A program made the translations under genes and the position numbers. Below, piece after piece: positions 1,119-31,337 of a stretch of DNA of 33,256 bases. Source of the stretch: Fibrobacter sp. UWR4 (GTDB taxonomy: Bacteria > Fibrobacterota > Fibrobacteria > Fibrobacterales > Fibrobacteraceae); the NCBI RefSeq assembly GCF_003149045.1, contig NZ_QGDU01000034.1, positions 1-33,256 of the forward strand, written 5' to 3'. The notes beneath the pieces were generated by a model. It had not been told where the DNA came from. It made no database searches and worked only from the letters and a program-made list of their open reading frames with translations. Numbering within the stretch: the first letter of the stretch is position 1; each line of letters starts with the position of its first letter.

Positions 1119-1999
1119 GATTTATCGTAATCTTCCAGAAAACTGTGCTGTTCGCCGCCGGCTTTGTAGCCGGGAAAAGTCTCGATGCACACGGCATGAA
1201 CGCTGTTGAAAATATTCTTTTCGATATTGGGGTTGATTCGCTTGAGGCGCTTGATCAACTCCTTTGTTTCCTTGCGCTTGCTGACGCTGATGACGTCGCC
1301 GCTAGCATTGTCAATGGCGCAGGCTTCCTGCTCTGCAGTGCGTGAAGTCATGCGGCAGGCGCACTGGATGAATTCCAGGCCGTTGTATTTTGTCCAGTTG
1401 ACAATATCCTGCTCGTTGATACAGTACATGGGGCGGATCAGTTCCATGCCGTCAAAATTCTGGCTGCGAAGCTTGGGCATCATGCCCTGCAGTTGCGCGC
1501 CGTAGAACATGGCCATGACCGTGGTTTCGATGACGTCGGACATGTGGTGACCCAAGGCAATCTTGTTGCAACCCATATCCTTTGCCATGTGGTACAGATG
1601 ACCGCGTCGCATCTTGGCGCAAACATAGCAAGGAGACTTGACCACCTTTTCGGTAACGTCAAAAATGTTGGTCTCGAAAACCGTGATGGGAATTTCCAGC
1701 AGGGCGGCGTTGCTCTCGATCTTTTCCCGATTCACCTTGTTGTAGCCCGGATCCATTACCAGGTACTTGACTTCAAACTGAAAATCCGAGTGGCGCAAAA
1801 GCATCTGCATCAGCTTGGCCAGCAGCATGGAATCCTTGCCGCCCGAAATGCAGACCGCAATTTTGTCCCCTTCTTCGATCAGCTTGTATTTCTTGATGGC
1901 CGTGATGAAGGGCGTCCAGAGACGTTCGCGATAAGTGGTGGAAATGCTACGTTCCACCTTCTGCACAAAGGAAAGTTCTCTTTTCTGTTTCTCAGCCAT
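1115..1999 (-). CDS. TtcA-like PP-loop ATPase (tRNA 2-thiolation)
   Basis: A 294-residue N-type ATP pyrophosphatase. The PP-loop SGGKDS is at residues 52-57, a CxxC (C124, C127) lies in SPCYVCAKMRRG, and a further cysteine pair sits in IQCACRMT (C213, C215). TtcA enzymes bind a [4Fe-4S] cluster through a central CxxC and a later cysteine and make 2-thiocytidine at tRNA position 32, so the layout fits, although the region around the last cysteines differs from the classical Enterobacterial form. The ATG at 1999 overlaps the pdxT stop by 8 bases and is preferred over the TTG at 2008. It is the last gene of the pdxS-pdxT operon, which suggests translational coupling. A TtcA-like paralogue with another RNA substrate is possible. 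Confidence 0.82.
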   Translation of the reverse strand: MAEKQKRELSFVQKVERSISTTYRERLWTPFITAIKKYKLIEEGDKIAVCISGGKDSMLLAKLMQMLLRHSDFQFEVKYLVMDPGYNKVNREKIESNAALLEIPITVFETNIFDVTEKVVKSPCYVCAKMRRGHLYHMAKDMGCNKIALGHHMSDVIETTVMAMFYGAQLQGMMPKLRSQNFDGMELIRPMYCINEQDIVNWTKYNGLEFIQCACRMTSRTAEQEACAIDNASGDVISVSKRKETKELIKRLKRINPNIEKNIFNSVHAVCIETFPGYKAGGEQHSFLEDYDKS

Positions 2000-2642
2000 C
2001 AATGGCAAAGTTAGAAAAAATCATTTTCAGGAAGTACTGATGAATTCTCGTGTCTTTGTTCAGTTCCGGATGGAAGGTGATTCCTAGTTGGTTCTTGTAG
2101 CGGACTGCGACTATTTTATGATCAACTTCCGCAAGGACTTCCACGCCTTCGCCGGCGCTTGAAACCACGGGGGCGCGGATGAAGGTCATGGGGATGGTGG
2201 CGTCGGTGGCGTTCGTGATTCCTTTGAAGGGCTGTTCCGCGAAGAAACTTCCCAGCTGGCGGCCGTAGGCGTTACGCTGCACGGTGACGGGCAAGGTGCC
2301 GAAATAGACGTTGCTATCGTTGGAAAGTTTCTGTGCTAGAAGGATGAGACCTGCACATGTTCCCAAGACGGGGAGACCGTCCTGAATCAACTTTTTCAGC
2401 GGTTCGAAAAGTCCCAAGTCCTTCAGCAGTTTTCCCTGGACGGTGCTTTCACCGCCGGGGAGAACAAGACCGTCGAAAGGAAACTTTCCGCTCTTGGTTT
2501 CTGCGGGGGCGCGATTCAAATCGGAGAGCTGACGGATTTCGAATGTCTTTGCGCCGAGGCTTTCCAGAATTCTGCGGTGTTCAATAAATGCCCCCTGCAC
2601 GGCAAGGACGCCGATGACAGGGGCTTTTTTCGTTTGAGTCAT
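1992..2642 (-). CDS. pdxT: Pyridoxal 5'-phosphate synthase, glutaminase subunit
   Basis: A 216-residue class I glutamine amidotransferase. The family triad is visible: nucleophile C96 in GTCAGLILLA, and H191 and E193 in FHPEL. GGEST (residues 63-67) is the PdxT-specific glutamine-binding motif. PdxT releases ammonia from glutamine and passes it to PdxS for ribose-5-phosphate-dependent (DXP-independent) vitamin B6 synthesis in the cytoplasm. It follows pdxS after 24 bases and overlaps the ttcA-like gene by 8 bases, so the three are very likely cotranscribed. Confidence 0.97.
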   Translation of the reverse strand: MTQTKKAPVIGVLAVQGAFIEHRRILESLGAKTFEIRQLSDLNRAPAETKSGKFPFDGLVLPGGESTVQGKLLKDLGLFEPLKKLIQDGLPVLGTCAGLILLAQKLSNDSNVYFGTLPVTVQRNAYGRQLGSFFAEQPFKGITNATDATIPMTFIRAPVVSSAGEGVEVLAEVDHKIVAVRYKNQLGITFHPELNKDTRIHQYFLKMIFSNFAIDG

Positions 2643-2666: not shown

Positions 2667-3554
2667 TTACTTGCCGCGTTCGGCCATGAGCAATGCGATT
2701 TCCTGTTCGTTGATGCCCACCATGGCTTCGCCAAGGTCTTCGGAAAGTTTTGCGATGAGCTTTGCGTCAGTGTAGTTGGTGACGGCCTGGACGATGGCCT
2801 GGGCGCGCTTTTCGGGATTGCCGGACTTGAAAATTCCAGAACCCACGAACACGCCTTCGGCGCCCAGCTGCATCATGAGGGCGGCATCGGCGGGAGTTGC
2901 CACGCCACCTGCGGCGAAGTTCACTACGGGAAGCTTGCCGTTATCATGAACGTACTTCACGAGGGCATAGGAAACCCGGAGCTCCTTGGCGCGATTGTAG
3001 AGTTCGTCTTCACGCATGGAGGTGAGACGAGCGATTTCCTGCTGCATCAAACGCATGTGGCGCACTGCCTGCACGATGTCGCCAGTACCCGGTTCACCCT
3101 TGGTACGGATCATGGAAGCGCCTTCTTCAATACGGCGGAGGGCTTCTCCCAAATCCTTGGCGCCGCAAACGAAGGGCACCTGGAAATCCCGCTTGTTGAT
3201 GTGGAAAATGTCGTCGGCGGGGGAGAGCACTTCGCTTTCGTCGATGTAGTCAATTTCGATAGCCTGAAGAATCTGGGCTTCGGCGAAATGACCGATACGG
3301 CACTTGGCCATGACCGGGATGGATACGGCGTCCTGAATGCCCTTGATCATCTTGGGGTCGCTCATGCGGCTAACGCCTCCGGCGGCACGGATGTCTGCGG
3401 GAATGCGTTCCAGGGCCATGACGGCGCAGGCGCCTGCGGCTTCAGCAATCTTTGCCTGTTCCGGAGTGGTCACGTCCATGATGACGCCGCCCTTCAGCAT
3501 CTGGGCAAGGTTCTTGTTTAGTTCGTAACGGTCTGCGATATACTTTTCGGTCAT
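2667..3554 (-). CDS. pdxS: Pyridoxal 5'-phosphate synthase, synthase subunit
   Basis: A 295-residue (beta/alpha)8 PdxS/Pdx1, normal length. Active-site residues are in place: D27 in GGVIMDVTT, the first Schiff-base lysine K84 in MAKCRIGH, and the second lysine K152 in TKGEPGTG. It condenses ribose-5-phosphate, glyceraldehyde-3-phosphate and ammonia from PdxT into PLP. The ATG at 3554 is chosen over one 27 bases upstream because AAGGAG lies 7 bases before it. It is the first gene of the pdxST-ttcA operon and is divergent from the MocR-type regulator, which is the classical PdxR arrangement. Confidence 0.97.
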
Positions 3555-3576
3555 GGTTTGCTCCTTGGTTAATGAA

Positions 3577-3601
3577 GTCATCCCGGCCCTGTGCCGGGAT
3601 C
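3577..3601 (+). repeat. REP-like palindrome in the pdxS leader
   Basis: GTCATCCCGGC and GCCGGGATC form a near-perfect palindrome just upstream of pdxS. It has the same skeleton (GTCAT.CC ... GG.ATC) as the palindromes found inside lipoprotein genes at 21670, 32043 and 32118. On the pdxS transcript it would form a hairpin about 22 bases before the start codon, so an effect on translation is possible. Confidence 0.6.
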
Positions 3602-3664
3602 CCCTTTTTCAAACCCTAATTTACCCTTTTCATTGACATTATTAAATGTTCAATTTTCTACTTT

Positions 3665-3700
3665 TATAACAAGGTCAGAATAAGGTCAGTTTAAGGTCAG
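3665..3700 (+). promoter_or_regulatory. Promoter region with three AAGGTCAG direct repeats (candidate PdxR operator)
   Basis: AAGGTCAG occurs at 3671-3678, 3682-3689 and 3693-3700, exactly 11 bases apart, so all three lie on the same face of the helix. A possible -10 (TATAAC, 3665-3670) for the regulator gene directly precedes them, and the last copy ends 3 bases before the ATG at 3704. The region is shared with the divergent pdxS gene. PdxR proteins bind repeated sites in pdxR-pdxST intergenic regions, so this is the best operator candidate; the binding itself is inferred. Confidence 0.6.
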
Positions 3701-3703
3701 ATT

Positions 3704-5179
3704 ATGCTTAGTTACGACATGACAAAAAATGGTTCCGATTCTTTGTACCACTATTTGTATAAGTGCATCAAGAATGACGTTCTTCAGGGAACTTTGACGG
3801 CAGGGGATAAACTGCCTACGAAGCGTCCCTTTGCGGAACATCTTGGTGTCAGCGTGATTACTGTGGAAAATGCCTATGCCCAGTTGCTGACCGAGGGCTT
3901 TATTTATTCTGAACCCCGCAAGGGCTTTTTCGTTGCGGATATTGCCGAAAGGCTGAAAAAGTCTGGACTTGCTGCGACGCTGTCGCAACAAAATTTTCCC
4001 GAGTCTCGCGAGGCACAACGAATTTCCGCGCCCGACGATTTACCGCCCCGTTTTCAAAAACTTCAGTCCCGCGCCCGTAGCAAAATCATTGCGGACTTTA
4101 CCAGCAATCAGTCTGAAACTTCCGCATTCCCCTTCTCCACCTGGGCAAAAATCATGCGTAAGGTTTTGTGCGAACAGCAAAATGAACTGCTGGAACGTTC
4201 TCCCTACGGAGGCGTTTTGCCCCTCCGTGTGGCCATCGCAAAAATGCTGAAGGGAACCCGAAATCTGGATGTTTCTCCGGATCAGATTATTGTAGGCGCA
4301 GGCTCGGATTACCTTTATGCTTTGCTGGTTCAGTTGCTAGGTTTTGACAAAAAGTACGGCGTAGAAGATCCGGGCTACAGCAAGATTTCGAAAATCTATC
4401 GCAAGTTGAATGTGGTGTGCAACTTTATCCCTCTGGATGAACAAGGCGTGCGCATCGACCAGTTGGAAGAAACCTGCACCGACGTGGTCCATCTTTCGCC
4501 CTCCCATCATTTTCCTACGGGAATCGTGACGCCGGTGAGCCGCCGTTACGAACTGTTGAGCTGGGCTTCAAAATCCAGCAACCGCTACATCGTGGAAGAC
4601 GATTACGACAGCGAATTCCGCATGGTGGGCAAACCCATTCCCGCCCTGCAGAATATTGATGTCCAGGAAAAGGTGGTGTACATCAATTCCTTCTCCAAGA
4701 CGTTGGCGTCAACAGTTCGCGTAAGCTATATGGTGTTGCCCAGGAGCCTCGTGGAAAAATTCCACAAGGAATTCAGTTTCTATACTTGCACCGTTTCCAA
4801 CTTTGAGCAGTTGGCGCTTGCCCGCTACATTGGCGAAGGTCATTTCGAAAAGCATGTGAACCGCATGCGCAATTTTTACCGCCATCGTCGCGACGCTCTG
4901 CTTTCCGCCATTCGCAAATCCATGCTACGCGATTTCGCCGCCATCTCCGAAGAAGATGCGGGCCTTCACTTTATTCTGAAAATCAACACCGCCCTCTCCG
5001 ATGAGGAATTCTGCAACGCCGCCAAGGAAAAGGGGGTTGTCATCGGGGCCCTTTCGGATTACTACACCCAGGCCGAACCTTCCGCCCATCAGTTCATCAT
5101 GAACTACTCCGCCGTGCCCGAAAAGCAAATGCCAAGGGCCATGGAAAAGCTGTACGAAGTGGTGAAGTCTATCTCCTAA
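3704..5179 (+). CDS. pdxR: MocR/PdxR-type regulator (GntR HTH plus aminotransferase fold)
   Basis: A 491-residue MocR-subfamily regulator. Residues 12-78 form a GntR winged helix (GDKLPTKRPFAEHLGVS, ENAYAQLLTEGF), and residues 130-490 form a fold-type I aminotransferase domain with the PLP-binding lysine K332 in NSFSKTLAST and the cofactor-contacting VEDDYDSEF near 298-305. PdxR proteins sense PLP and control pdxST; the divergent position next to pdxS strongly supports this role. The start is the ATG at 3704 or the one at 3719; neither has a strong Shine-Dalgarno, and the second would leave more space after the direct repeats. Autoregulation is likely because the repeats touch its start. Confidence 0.88.
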   Translation: MLSYDMTKNGSDSLYHYLYKCIKNDVLQGTLTAGDKLPTKRPFAEHLGVSVITVENAYAQLLTEGFIYSEPRKGFFVADIAERLKKSGLAATLSQQNFPESREAQRISAPDDLPPRFQKLQSRARSKIIADFTSNQSETSAFPFSTWAKIMRKVLCEQQNELLERSPYGGVLPLRVAIAKMLKGTRNLDVSPDQIIVGAGSDYLYALLVQLLGFDKKYGVEDPGYSKISKIYRKLNVVCNFIPLDEQGVRIDQLEETCTDVVHLSPSHHFPTGIVTPVSRRYELLSWASKSSNRYIVEDDYDSEFRMVGKPIPALQNIDVQEKVVYINSFSKTLASTVRVSYMVLPRSLVEKFHKEFSFYTCTVSNFEQLALARYIGEGHFEKHVNRMRNFYRHRRDALLSAIRKSMLRDFAAISEEDAGLHFILKINTALSDEEFCNAAKEKGVVIGALSDYYTQAEPSAHQFIMNYSAVPEKQMPRAMEKLYEVVKSIS

Positions 5180-30230: not shown

Positions 30231-31337
30231 ATGTCAAATACGCACCATTTTGATGTGGTGGGCAGTTTTCTGCGCCCCGCAAATTTGAAGAACGCCAAGG
30301 CTGAATTGGAAGCCGGCAAGATTACTGAACTTCAGTACAAGGCTATTAAGCAAAATGCCATTCGCGAACTGGTAGAAAAGCAGAAGAAGGCTGGACTCCA
30401 TTACATTACCGATGGCGAATACAATCGCAAATTTTGGCATCTGGATTTTTTCTGGGGCTTTGACGGAATCGCCCATCAGAAAGATGGCGGTGGCGTTCAG
30501 TTCGCTGGCGAAGTGGCTGACCTTGAAGCTACTTATTTGGTAGGCAAGATTCGCGTAAGGCCTCATCCCTTTGTAGAAGATTTTAAGTTCGTGAAGTCTC
30601 TTGAAAGTGACGGTCATGAAGCCAAGCAGACCATTCCTGCTCCTGCTCAACTTTTCCAGCAGCTTATCGTTCCCCAGAATATCGAAACGACCCGCAAGTT
30701 CTACGCCACAAATGATGAACTGATTGAAGATATTGCCTACGCCTACCGCGGCGTGATCCGTCAGCTTTATGATGCAGGCTGCAGAACTATCCAGTTCGAT
30801 GACTGCACCTGGGGTGCAATCGTTGGCGATGCTGCTGCACAGCGCTACAAGTCCCTGGGCCTGAGCCTGGATGTAGTGAAGAACCAGCTGCTCCATGTAA
30901 ACAACCTGGCCATCGAAGGCAAACCTGCGGACTTGCAGATCAATACCCACATTTGTCGTGGCAACTATCACTCCACCTATTTCACCAGCGGCCCCTACGA
31001 TTCCGTGGCGGATTACGTTTTCGCCCGTGAAAATGTGAACACGCTTTATCTGGAATACGATGACGAACGCTCCGGCGGTTTTGAGCCCTTGTCAAAGGTA
31101 AGCGCCGACAAGGTTGTTGTTCTTGGCCTGATTACTTCCAAGTCCCCCAAGCTGGAAGACAAGGTGACAGTTATCGCCCGCATTAAGGAAGCGACCAAGT
31201 ACATTCCTTTGGAACGCCTGAAGCTGAGCCCTCAATGTGGCTTTGCCTCCTGCGATGTAGGCAACAAGCTGACCGAAGAAGAACAGTGGGCAAAGATCGC
31301 CTTGATTAAGGAAATCGCCGACGAAGTCTGGGGATAA
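30231..31337 (+). CDS. Cobalamin-independent methionine synthase-like protein (MetE C-terminal type)
   Basis: A 368-residue protein of the short MetE/YxjG type. The zinc site is complete: H240 and C242 in NTHICRGNYH, the acidic ligand region LYLEYDDE (272-279) and C336 in LSPQCGFASC. The N-terminal MetE domain is absent. Short forms transfer methyl from methyl-tetrahydrofolate or another donor to homocysteine, or act on related substrates. The start is the ATG at 30231, which has AAGGAA upstream; one at 30213 has none. Confidence 0.88.
   Translation: MSNTHHFDVVGSFLRPANLKNAKAELEAGKITELQYKAIKQNAIRELVEKQKKAGLHYITDGEYNRKFWHLDFFWGFDGIAHQKDGGGVQFAGEVADLEATYLVGKIRVRPHPFVEDFKFVKSLESDGHEAKQTIPAPAQLFQQLIVPQNIETTRKFYATNDELIEDIAYAYRGVIRQLYDAGCRTIQFDDCTWGAIVGDAAAQRYKSLGLSLDVVKNQLLHVNNLAIEGKPADLQINTHICRGNYHSTYFTSGPYDSVADYVFARENVNTLYLEYDDERSGGFEPLSKVSADKVVVLGLITSKSPKLEDKVTVIARIKEATKYIPLERLKLSPQCGFASCDVGNKLTEEEQWAKIALIKEIADEVWG

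Follow-up and report, generated by a model that had tools for sequence, protein, structure and literature searches.

The window, the whole stretch of 33,256 nucleotides that was analysed, carries a divergon in which the genes for the two subunits of PLP synthase are transcribed away from a gene for a regulator:

1992 to 2642, minus strand: pdxT, PLP synthase glutaminase subunit, passing its equivalog cut-off
2667 to 3554, minus strand: pdxS, PLP synthase lyase subunit, passing its equivalog cut-off
3704 to 5179, plus strand: pdxR, MocR/GntR-type PLP-dependent regulator of 491 aa

The regulator scores 552.5 bits against the NCBIfam model NF052282 PLP_TF_PdxR (cut-off 320). Its next best equivalog is GabR, at 412 bits and under the GabR cut-off of 600, and it scores higher on the PdxR model than on the GabR, MocR and EhuR models. 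Both of its Pfam domains, GntR at residues 15–77 and Aminotran_1_2 at 131–483, are over their cut-offs. The protein is like Bacillus subtilis GabR in domain order, the alignment with it covers residues 10–487, and K332, in an FSK motif, is aligned with K312 of the GabR chain, which we take to be the PLP-holding lysine, so that the position of this lysine is conserved. Among named relatives, Fibrobacter genomes are nearest, the closest being from horse faeces. Divergent and adjacent placement of pdxS and pdxR is found in the window and in 83 Fibrobacteraceae loci, a count that includes duplicates between searches.

An initial annotation of this DNA had described three direct repeats at exact 11-base intervals between pdxS and pdxR, abutting the start codon of the regulator, and had judged a chance origin unlikely. 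We confirmed each of these points. The 8-mer AAGGTCAG occurs at 3671–3678, 3682–3689 and 3693–3700, always on the plus strand and with start-to-start distances of 11 and 11 bp, and the last base of the triplet is 3 bp upstream of the pdxR ATG. Dinucleotide shuffling of the 149-bp pdxS–pdxR spacer (3555–3703) produced no equally spaced 8-mer triplet in 10,000 trials, and AAGGTCAG forms the only such triplet in the 33-kb window at spacings of 8–40 bp. A fourth, isolated copy lies on the minus strand of the window at 30517–30524; shuffling gives an expectation of 0.91 copies per window, with four copies reached in 1 of 100 shuffles. The exact pair AAGGTCAG-NNT-AAGGTCAG is found at this site alone in the 3.6-Mb assembly. 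An in-frame TAA at 3692–3694 ends the frame three codons upstream of the pdxR ATG (open frame of 494 versus 491), so boxes 1 and 2 of the triplet cannot code for pdxR, and there is no ATG, GTG or TTG among the three codons between this TAA and the ATG.

The initial annotation had read the repeats as an array for PdxR. Conservation is strong and supports this reading well, but the site is larger than proposed, with five half-sites at 3633–3700 rather than three, and is flanked or interrupted by two candidate promoter elements:

3617 to 3623, minus strand: candidate pdxS -10 element, TAAATTA, at conserved columns -33 to -27 of the anchored alignment
3633 to 3640, minus strand: inverted half-site, TTGACATT on the plus strand and AATGTCAA on the minus strand
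3645 to 3656, plus strand: middle direct half-site, AATGTTCAATTT
3665 to 3670, plus strand: candidate pdxR -10 element, TATAAC, at conserved columns +15 to +20 and touching box 1
3671 to 3678, plus strand: box 1, AAGGTCAG, direct half-site and counterpart of the single terminal MocR box in Clostridia
3682 to 3689, plus strand: box 2, AAGGTCAG, 11 bp on from box 1, an extension in Fibrobacteraceae
3693 to 3700, plus strand: box 3, AAGGTCAG, 22 bp on from box 1

The direct and inverted half-sites stand at constant spacing in the pdxS–pdxR spacer, with the inverted box weak or unrecognisable in some relatives. Where it can be read in relatives it is CTGACCTT or TTGACCTG; it is weak in some members of group C (defined below) and unrecognisable in loci L066 and L156. 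The AA and TT that flank the middle half-site are invariant in 49/49 distinct Fibrobacteraceae spacers, while its TTCA served as the alignment anchor and is thus present in all 49 by construction; a Clostridial counterpart is, for example, AATATCCAATTT. Box 1 follows the middle box at 25 bp, which is no whole number of turns. A consensus sigma-70 promoter scan of 3540–3720 found none on either strand; the two -10 elements are assigned from conserved columns only. The candidate pdxR element has a Clostridial counterpart in L144 (TATAAT-ACCAG). The TAAGG of box 3 is at the Shine-Dalgarno position, 7 nt upstream of the pdxR ATG, and may serve as the Shine-Dalgarno sequence.

Conservation in related pdxR–pdxS regions, which the initial annotation had named as a check, was followed in 49 distinct spacers drawn from the 83 Fibrobacteraceae loci with a readable start (again with duplicates between searches included). 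Excluded before counting were L040 (genome G032) and L041 (G021), whose MocR proteins are 45–48% identical to the PdxR of the window and lack an alignable PdxR start; L101, L118 and L094, in which the 5' end is missing; L149 (G117), with too little coding sequence; and L093, which has no adjoining pdxS and is counted among the non-Fibrobacter loci below. PdxR matches of incomplete N-terminus (G015, G034, G039, G049, G121, G141 and G147) are likewise outside the set. The middle-box anchor was picked after inspecting the sequences and matched more than once in 12/49 spacers, where the leftmost match was used (the second in L022). With this anchor, [TC]CA is found exactly 25 and 36 bp past the TTCA half-site, that is, in boxes 1 and 2, in 49/49 spacers, although these are related by descent and do not amount to 49 independent tests. 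The 25/36 register is kept although PdxR diverges to about 56% identity. Exact AAGGTCAG is present in 26/49 spacers at box 1 and in 12/49 at box 2, and [TC]CA is found at +47, the register of box 3, in 18/49.

The spacers with three boxes are group A, which consists of three relatives including the window, group D, with ten F. succinogenes-like loci, and L061, L062, L063, L066 and L156, the spacer of L063 being the same as that of F. intestinalis ATCC 43854 (L078). In L061 all three boxes read GACCAG, a parallel change. Group B (6/49) has two boxes, and group C (25/49) has two boxes plus another AAGGTCAG near the ATG, 23 bp past box 2 (22 bp in one spacer). At a lag of 11 bp, identity reaches 0.71 in the 18 three-box spacers and 0.66 in the full set of 49, whereas none of the other lags from 5 to 17 exceeds 0.47. 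Ten loci have other sequence between the operator and pdxR, which places box 3 128–518 bp from the ATG with the 11-bp register intact. In a tree of 52 chosen PdxR sequences, the 28 Fibrobacteraceae rows form one branch (support 100/99), and three-box members occur in both of its major clades, so that three boxes may be ancestral.

Two further elements of these spacers were seen. The pdxS leader of the window contains a perfect hairpin at 3577–3601, GTCATCCCGGC-CCTGT-GCCGGGATC, which is missing from the two closest relatives (L004 and L005), where the spacer is 32 bp shorter. It scored as terminator-like on the plus strand, and the genome has three such sites, itself included, at up to 2 mismatches. 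In F. succinogenes-like genomes (L009, L010, L017, L018 and L021), the sequence that separates the operator from pdxR consists partly of a 162-bp unit, present as 2.3 tandem copies in L021 (3023–3402 as stored). Seven matches to this unit, all just upstream of pdxR, were found in three of six genomes searched. The region has a strong hairpin (z -3.0) and a reading frame, open across as many as 167 codons, whose translation repeats the peptide MxELRIVKTLETVLAR...; it might encode a leader RNA or a small protein.

Across the genus, the pattern AAYRTTCA-N2-TT-N18-YCAS-N7-YCAG gave 42 matches in 41 of 61 genomes, with 0 for the reversed control. It occurs once per genome except in one genome with two pdxR copies. 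Matches to PdxR at E ≤ 1e-60 are present in 43/61 genomes and in 28 of the 29 good ones; the operator pattern is likewise found in 28/29 good genomes, and the lone exception, G046, is also without a PdxR match. Only G021 and G032 have a PdxR match but no operator pattern, and these matches, at 45–48% identity, are probably other MocR proteins. Comparison by eye placed 41 of the 42 pattern matches no more than about 600 bp away from the PdxR match and on the same contig as pdxR. The exception (G039:C260) comes from a fragmented assembly in which a small contig bears the pattern and a different one the PdxR piece. When TTGA was also required at a fixed place, 13/61 genomes matched, as groups B and C differ there. 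PdxR of the genus thus appears, from these scans, to have a single target region.

A regulon beyond the divergon was considered and rejected. When the genome of the window was scanned for the AAGGTCAG pair with an N3 gap, allowing 3 mismatches at most, there were 31 matches, the site itself included, versus 66 for the reversed control, and no match with fewer than 2 mismatches outside the pdxR site; the genus pattern, apart from G039:C260, is linked to pdxR.

The array extends a MocR operator that is found in other phyla. A core of TGR-17-YCA-24-YCAG, with gaps variable by a few bases, corresponds to the inverted half-site, the middle half-site and box 1, and is present at 7/7 non-Fibrobacter pdxR–pdxS loci (six Clostridia and one Eggerthellaceae). 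It lies upstream of 21 of 47 non-Fibrobacter PdxR-relative genes, against a mean of 0.5 and a maximum of 3/47 in shuffles; the pattern was written after seeing some of the sequences, so this control covers chance and not the choice of pattern. Of 80 loci, the 47 are those titled as non-Fibrobacter for which 60 bp or more of upstream sequence was available, counting L103 and L124, whose titles name no taxon. The core is absent from the other 26, and pdxS was found beside none of these. Box 1 is 41 bp (16 + 25) from the inverted half-site in the window, compared with 40–42 bp (17 + 23 to 25) in the 21 loci. The terminal box of Clostridial loci is AAGGTCAGTTT in L102 and GGTCAG in L095, L098 and L108. 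A second box at +11 is present in only 1 of the 21 (L137, Eggerthellaceae), versus 49/49 Fibrobacteraceae spacers, which makes the tandem extension almost private to Fibrobacteraceae in this sample.

Two loci outside the main set are worth describing. In the pdxR–pdxS spacer of L137, CAGGTCAG-AAT-AAGGTCAG stands 63 bp upstream of the MocR start, the same 11-bp tandem as in Fibrobacter, and the PdxR there is only about 41% identical. L041 (G021) encodes the MocR protein 48% identical to the PdxR of the window, with no pdxS match in the fetched upstream stretch; by eye, it has a MocR operator whose single terminal box overlaps the start codon, while L040 is without such an operator.

Fibrobacteraceae PdxR forms a single branch among mostly Bacillota sequences in a tree whose members were chosen from the best matches. 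Sampling of 40 genera of the phylum gave PdxR in 3, and PdxS shows 87–89% identity to its counterparts in L095, L098, L108 and L133. Together these observations suggest that the divergon, with its operator, was perhaps acquired from Clostridia.

Could the repeats instead act on the pdxR mRNA, as tandem Shine-Dalgarno copies (TAAGG) or standby sites? The TAAGG of box 3 is well placed relative to the ATG, the motif recurs in box 2, and the third box of group C is likewise near the ATG. In relatives, however, it is [TC]CA(G) that is constant, and AAGG is not: at box 2, only 12/49 spacers have AAGGTCAG, whereas 32 have AATATCAG, AATACCAG or AATGTCAG. Box 3 also keeps its register in the ten loci where it is 128–518 bp from the start codon, and the leader of the window folds as an ordinary RNA (z 0.67), so we regard a translational element as highly improbable. 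PLP genes are metabolite-controlled, and a riboswitch or other structured RNA might be expected in the leader of pdxR or pdxS, but the sole Rfam match at E up to 1 in 3300–4000 was to a miRNA family, at 19.9 bits versus a gathering score of 70, and the fold of 3671–3760 is not unusual; this is the least credible of the explanations weighed here.

The same conserved register bears on two other proposals. Replication slippage typically leaves perfect short-period copies, and the three copies in the window are identical, as a functionless tandem duplication would predict. The register and the YCA cores are nevertheless kept in both major PdxR clades while the inter-box bases differ (AAT, TTT, ATT), and neutral duplication is hardly plausible. 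Somewhat easier to entertain, but still very unlikely, is that another transcription factor binds the tandem boxes and that PdxR is confined to the middle and inverted ones. It is true that the Clostridial core does not include boxes 2 and 3. Box 1, however, is one of the identical triplet and is itself in the core register, where it matches the terminal box of Clostridial loci, and in the searched genus genomes the pattern occurs only beside pdxR, save for the one small-contig match.

We therefore consider it very likely, from the sequence comparisons, that the array serves as the operator for the divergent pdxST/pdxR pair, and predict that it is bound by PdxR. According to a review (PMC5320631), the boxes to which published PdxR proteins bind in the pdxST–pdxR spacer are either a mixture of direct and inverted ones or inverted ones; by the same account, these proteins activate pdxST and repress pdxR, and PLP is an anti-activator that lowers affinity for direct repeats. 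By analogy, PdxR of Fibrobacter would bind as a head-to-tail MocR dimer to half-sites with the core [TC]CAG. The ancestral site would have comprised the inverted box, the middle direct box and, 41 bp from the inverted box, box 1. Fibrobacteraceae would then have gained box 2 and, in many of their lineages, also box 3, both a single helical turn beyond the preceding box, which would put boxes 1–3 on the same side of the helix.

At low PLP levels, the array would be occupied by PLP-free PdxR. On the left side, PdxR around the pdxS -35 region would recruit RNA polymerase to pdxST; the empty sigma-70 scan is compatible with an activator-dependent pdxS promoter. On the right side, since the candidate pdxR -10 touches box 1, boxes 1–3 would cover the pdxR start site and the leader up to the Shine-Dalgarno region, and pdxR would be repressed. 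The arrangement of the sites fits both effects. PLP bound at K332 would weaken binding to the direct boxes, relaxing both activation and repression. The initial annotation had expected autorepression; we would correct this in that pdxST activation is as likely an output. Autorepression by Streptococcus pyogenes PdxR is reportedly independent of the B6 vitamer level (PMC11619246), so in Fibrobacter the pdxR side may not respond to PLP as proposed. The least certain part of the scheme is that the extra boxes would give tighter, cooperative autorepression. A more speculative version, which we think unlikely, makes the one-turn array a multi-register MocR platform, on which several PdxR dimers would sit next to each other along the same face of the DNA, or a single dimer would move from box to box among boxes 1–3. 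Cooperative autorepression would then be tunable by box number, and the innermost box would double as the ribosome-binding site, locking the operator to the translation start.

How does this operator compare with known ones? The PdxR operators of Bacillus clausii and Corynebacterium glutamicum, as described in the review, likewise combine divergent pdxST–pdxR genes with a spacer in which direct boxes occur together with inverted ones, and there too pdxST is activated and pdxR repressed, by regulators of the family whose equivalog model the regulator of the window passes. By that description, however, their direct boxes are two or three turns apart (PMC5320631), and here boxes 1–3 are one turn apart. 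GabR of B. subtilis differs in responding, according to the same source, to PLP plus GABA (PMC5320631), whereas the regulator here is pdxST-linked and under the GabR cut-off. In Table 2 of Suvorova and Rodionov (2016), the MocR layout that occurs most often is 'two direct plus one inverted' (103 regulogs, 245 regulons), and inter-box distances of one or several turns are given there as general for MocR motifs. The Clostridial core, and the inverted box, middle box and box 1 of the window, are of this class when read on the pdxS strand. The layouts of that table have at most four boxes in all, whereas the window has four direct and one inverted; 'three direct plus one inverted' (3 regulogs) would fit group B. 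The core layout is therefore known, and the row of three one-turn boxes is an unusual extension and a modestly new layout. The box sequence may already be catalogued for Clostridia. In full-text searches we found no PdxR site in print for Fibrobacter: in PMC9997740, 12 of the 14 places where Fibrobacter or PdxR is named hold no description of such a site, papers pairing Fibrobacter with MocR do not carry these words in title or abstract, and the main text of Suvorova and Rodionov (2016) does not mention Fibrobacter.

The use of direct repeats by head-to-tail MocR dimers is still debated, and the natural series of box numbers (two, three, and two plus one displaced) permits a direct test of how such dimers read them. 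A MocR operator core is held at near-constant spacing between phyla while one lineage adds boxes one turn apart, and for Fibrobacter the array provides a testable candidate operator for the control of vitamin B6.
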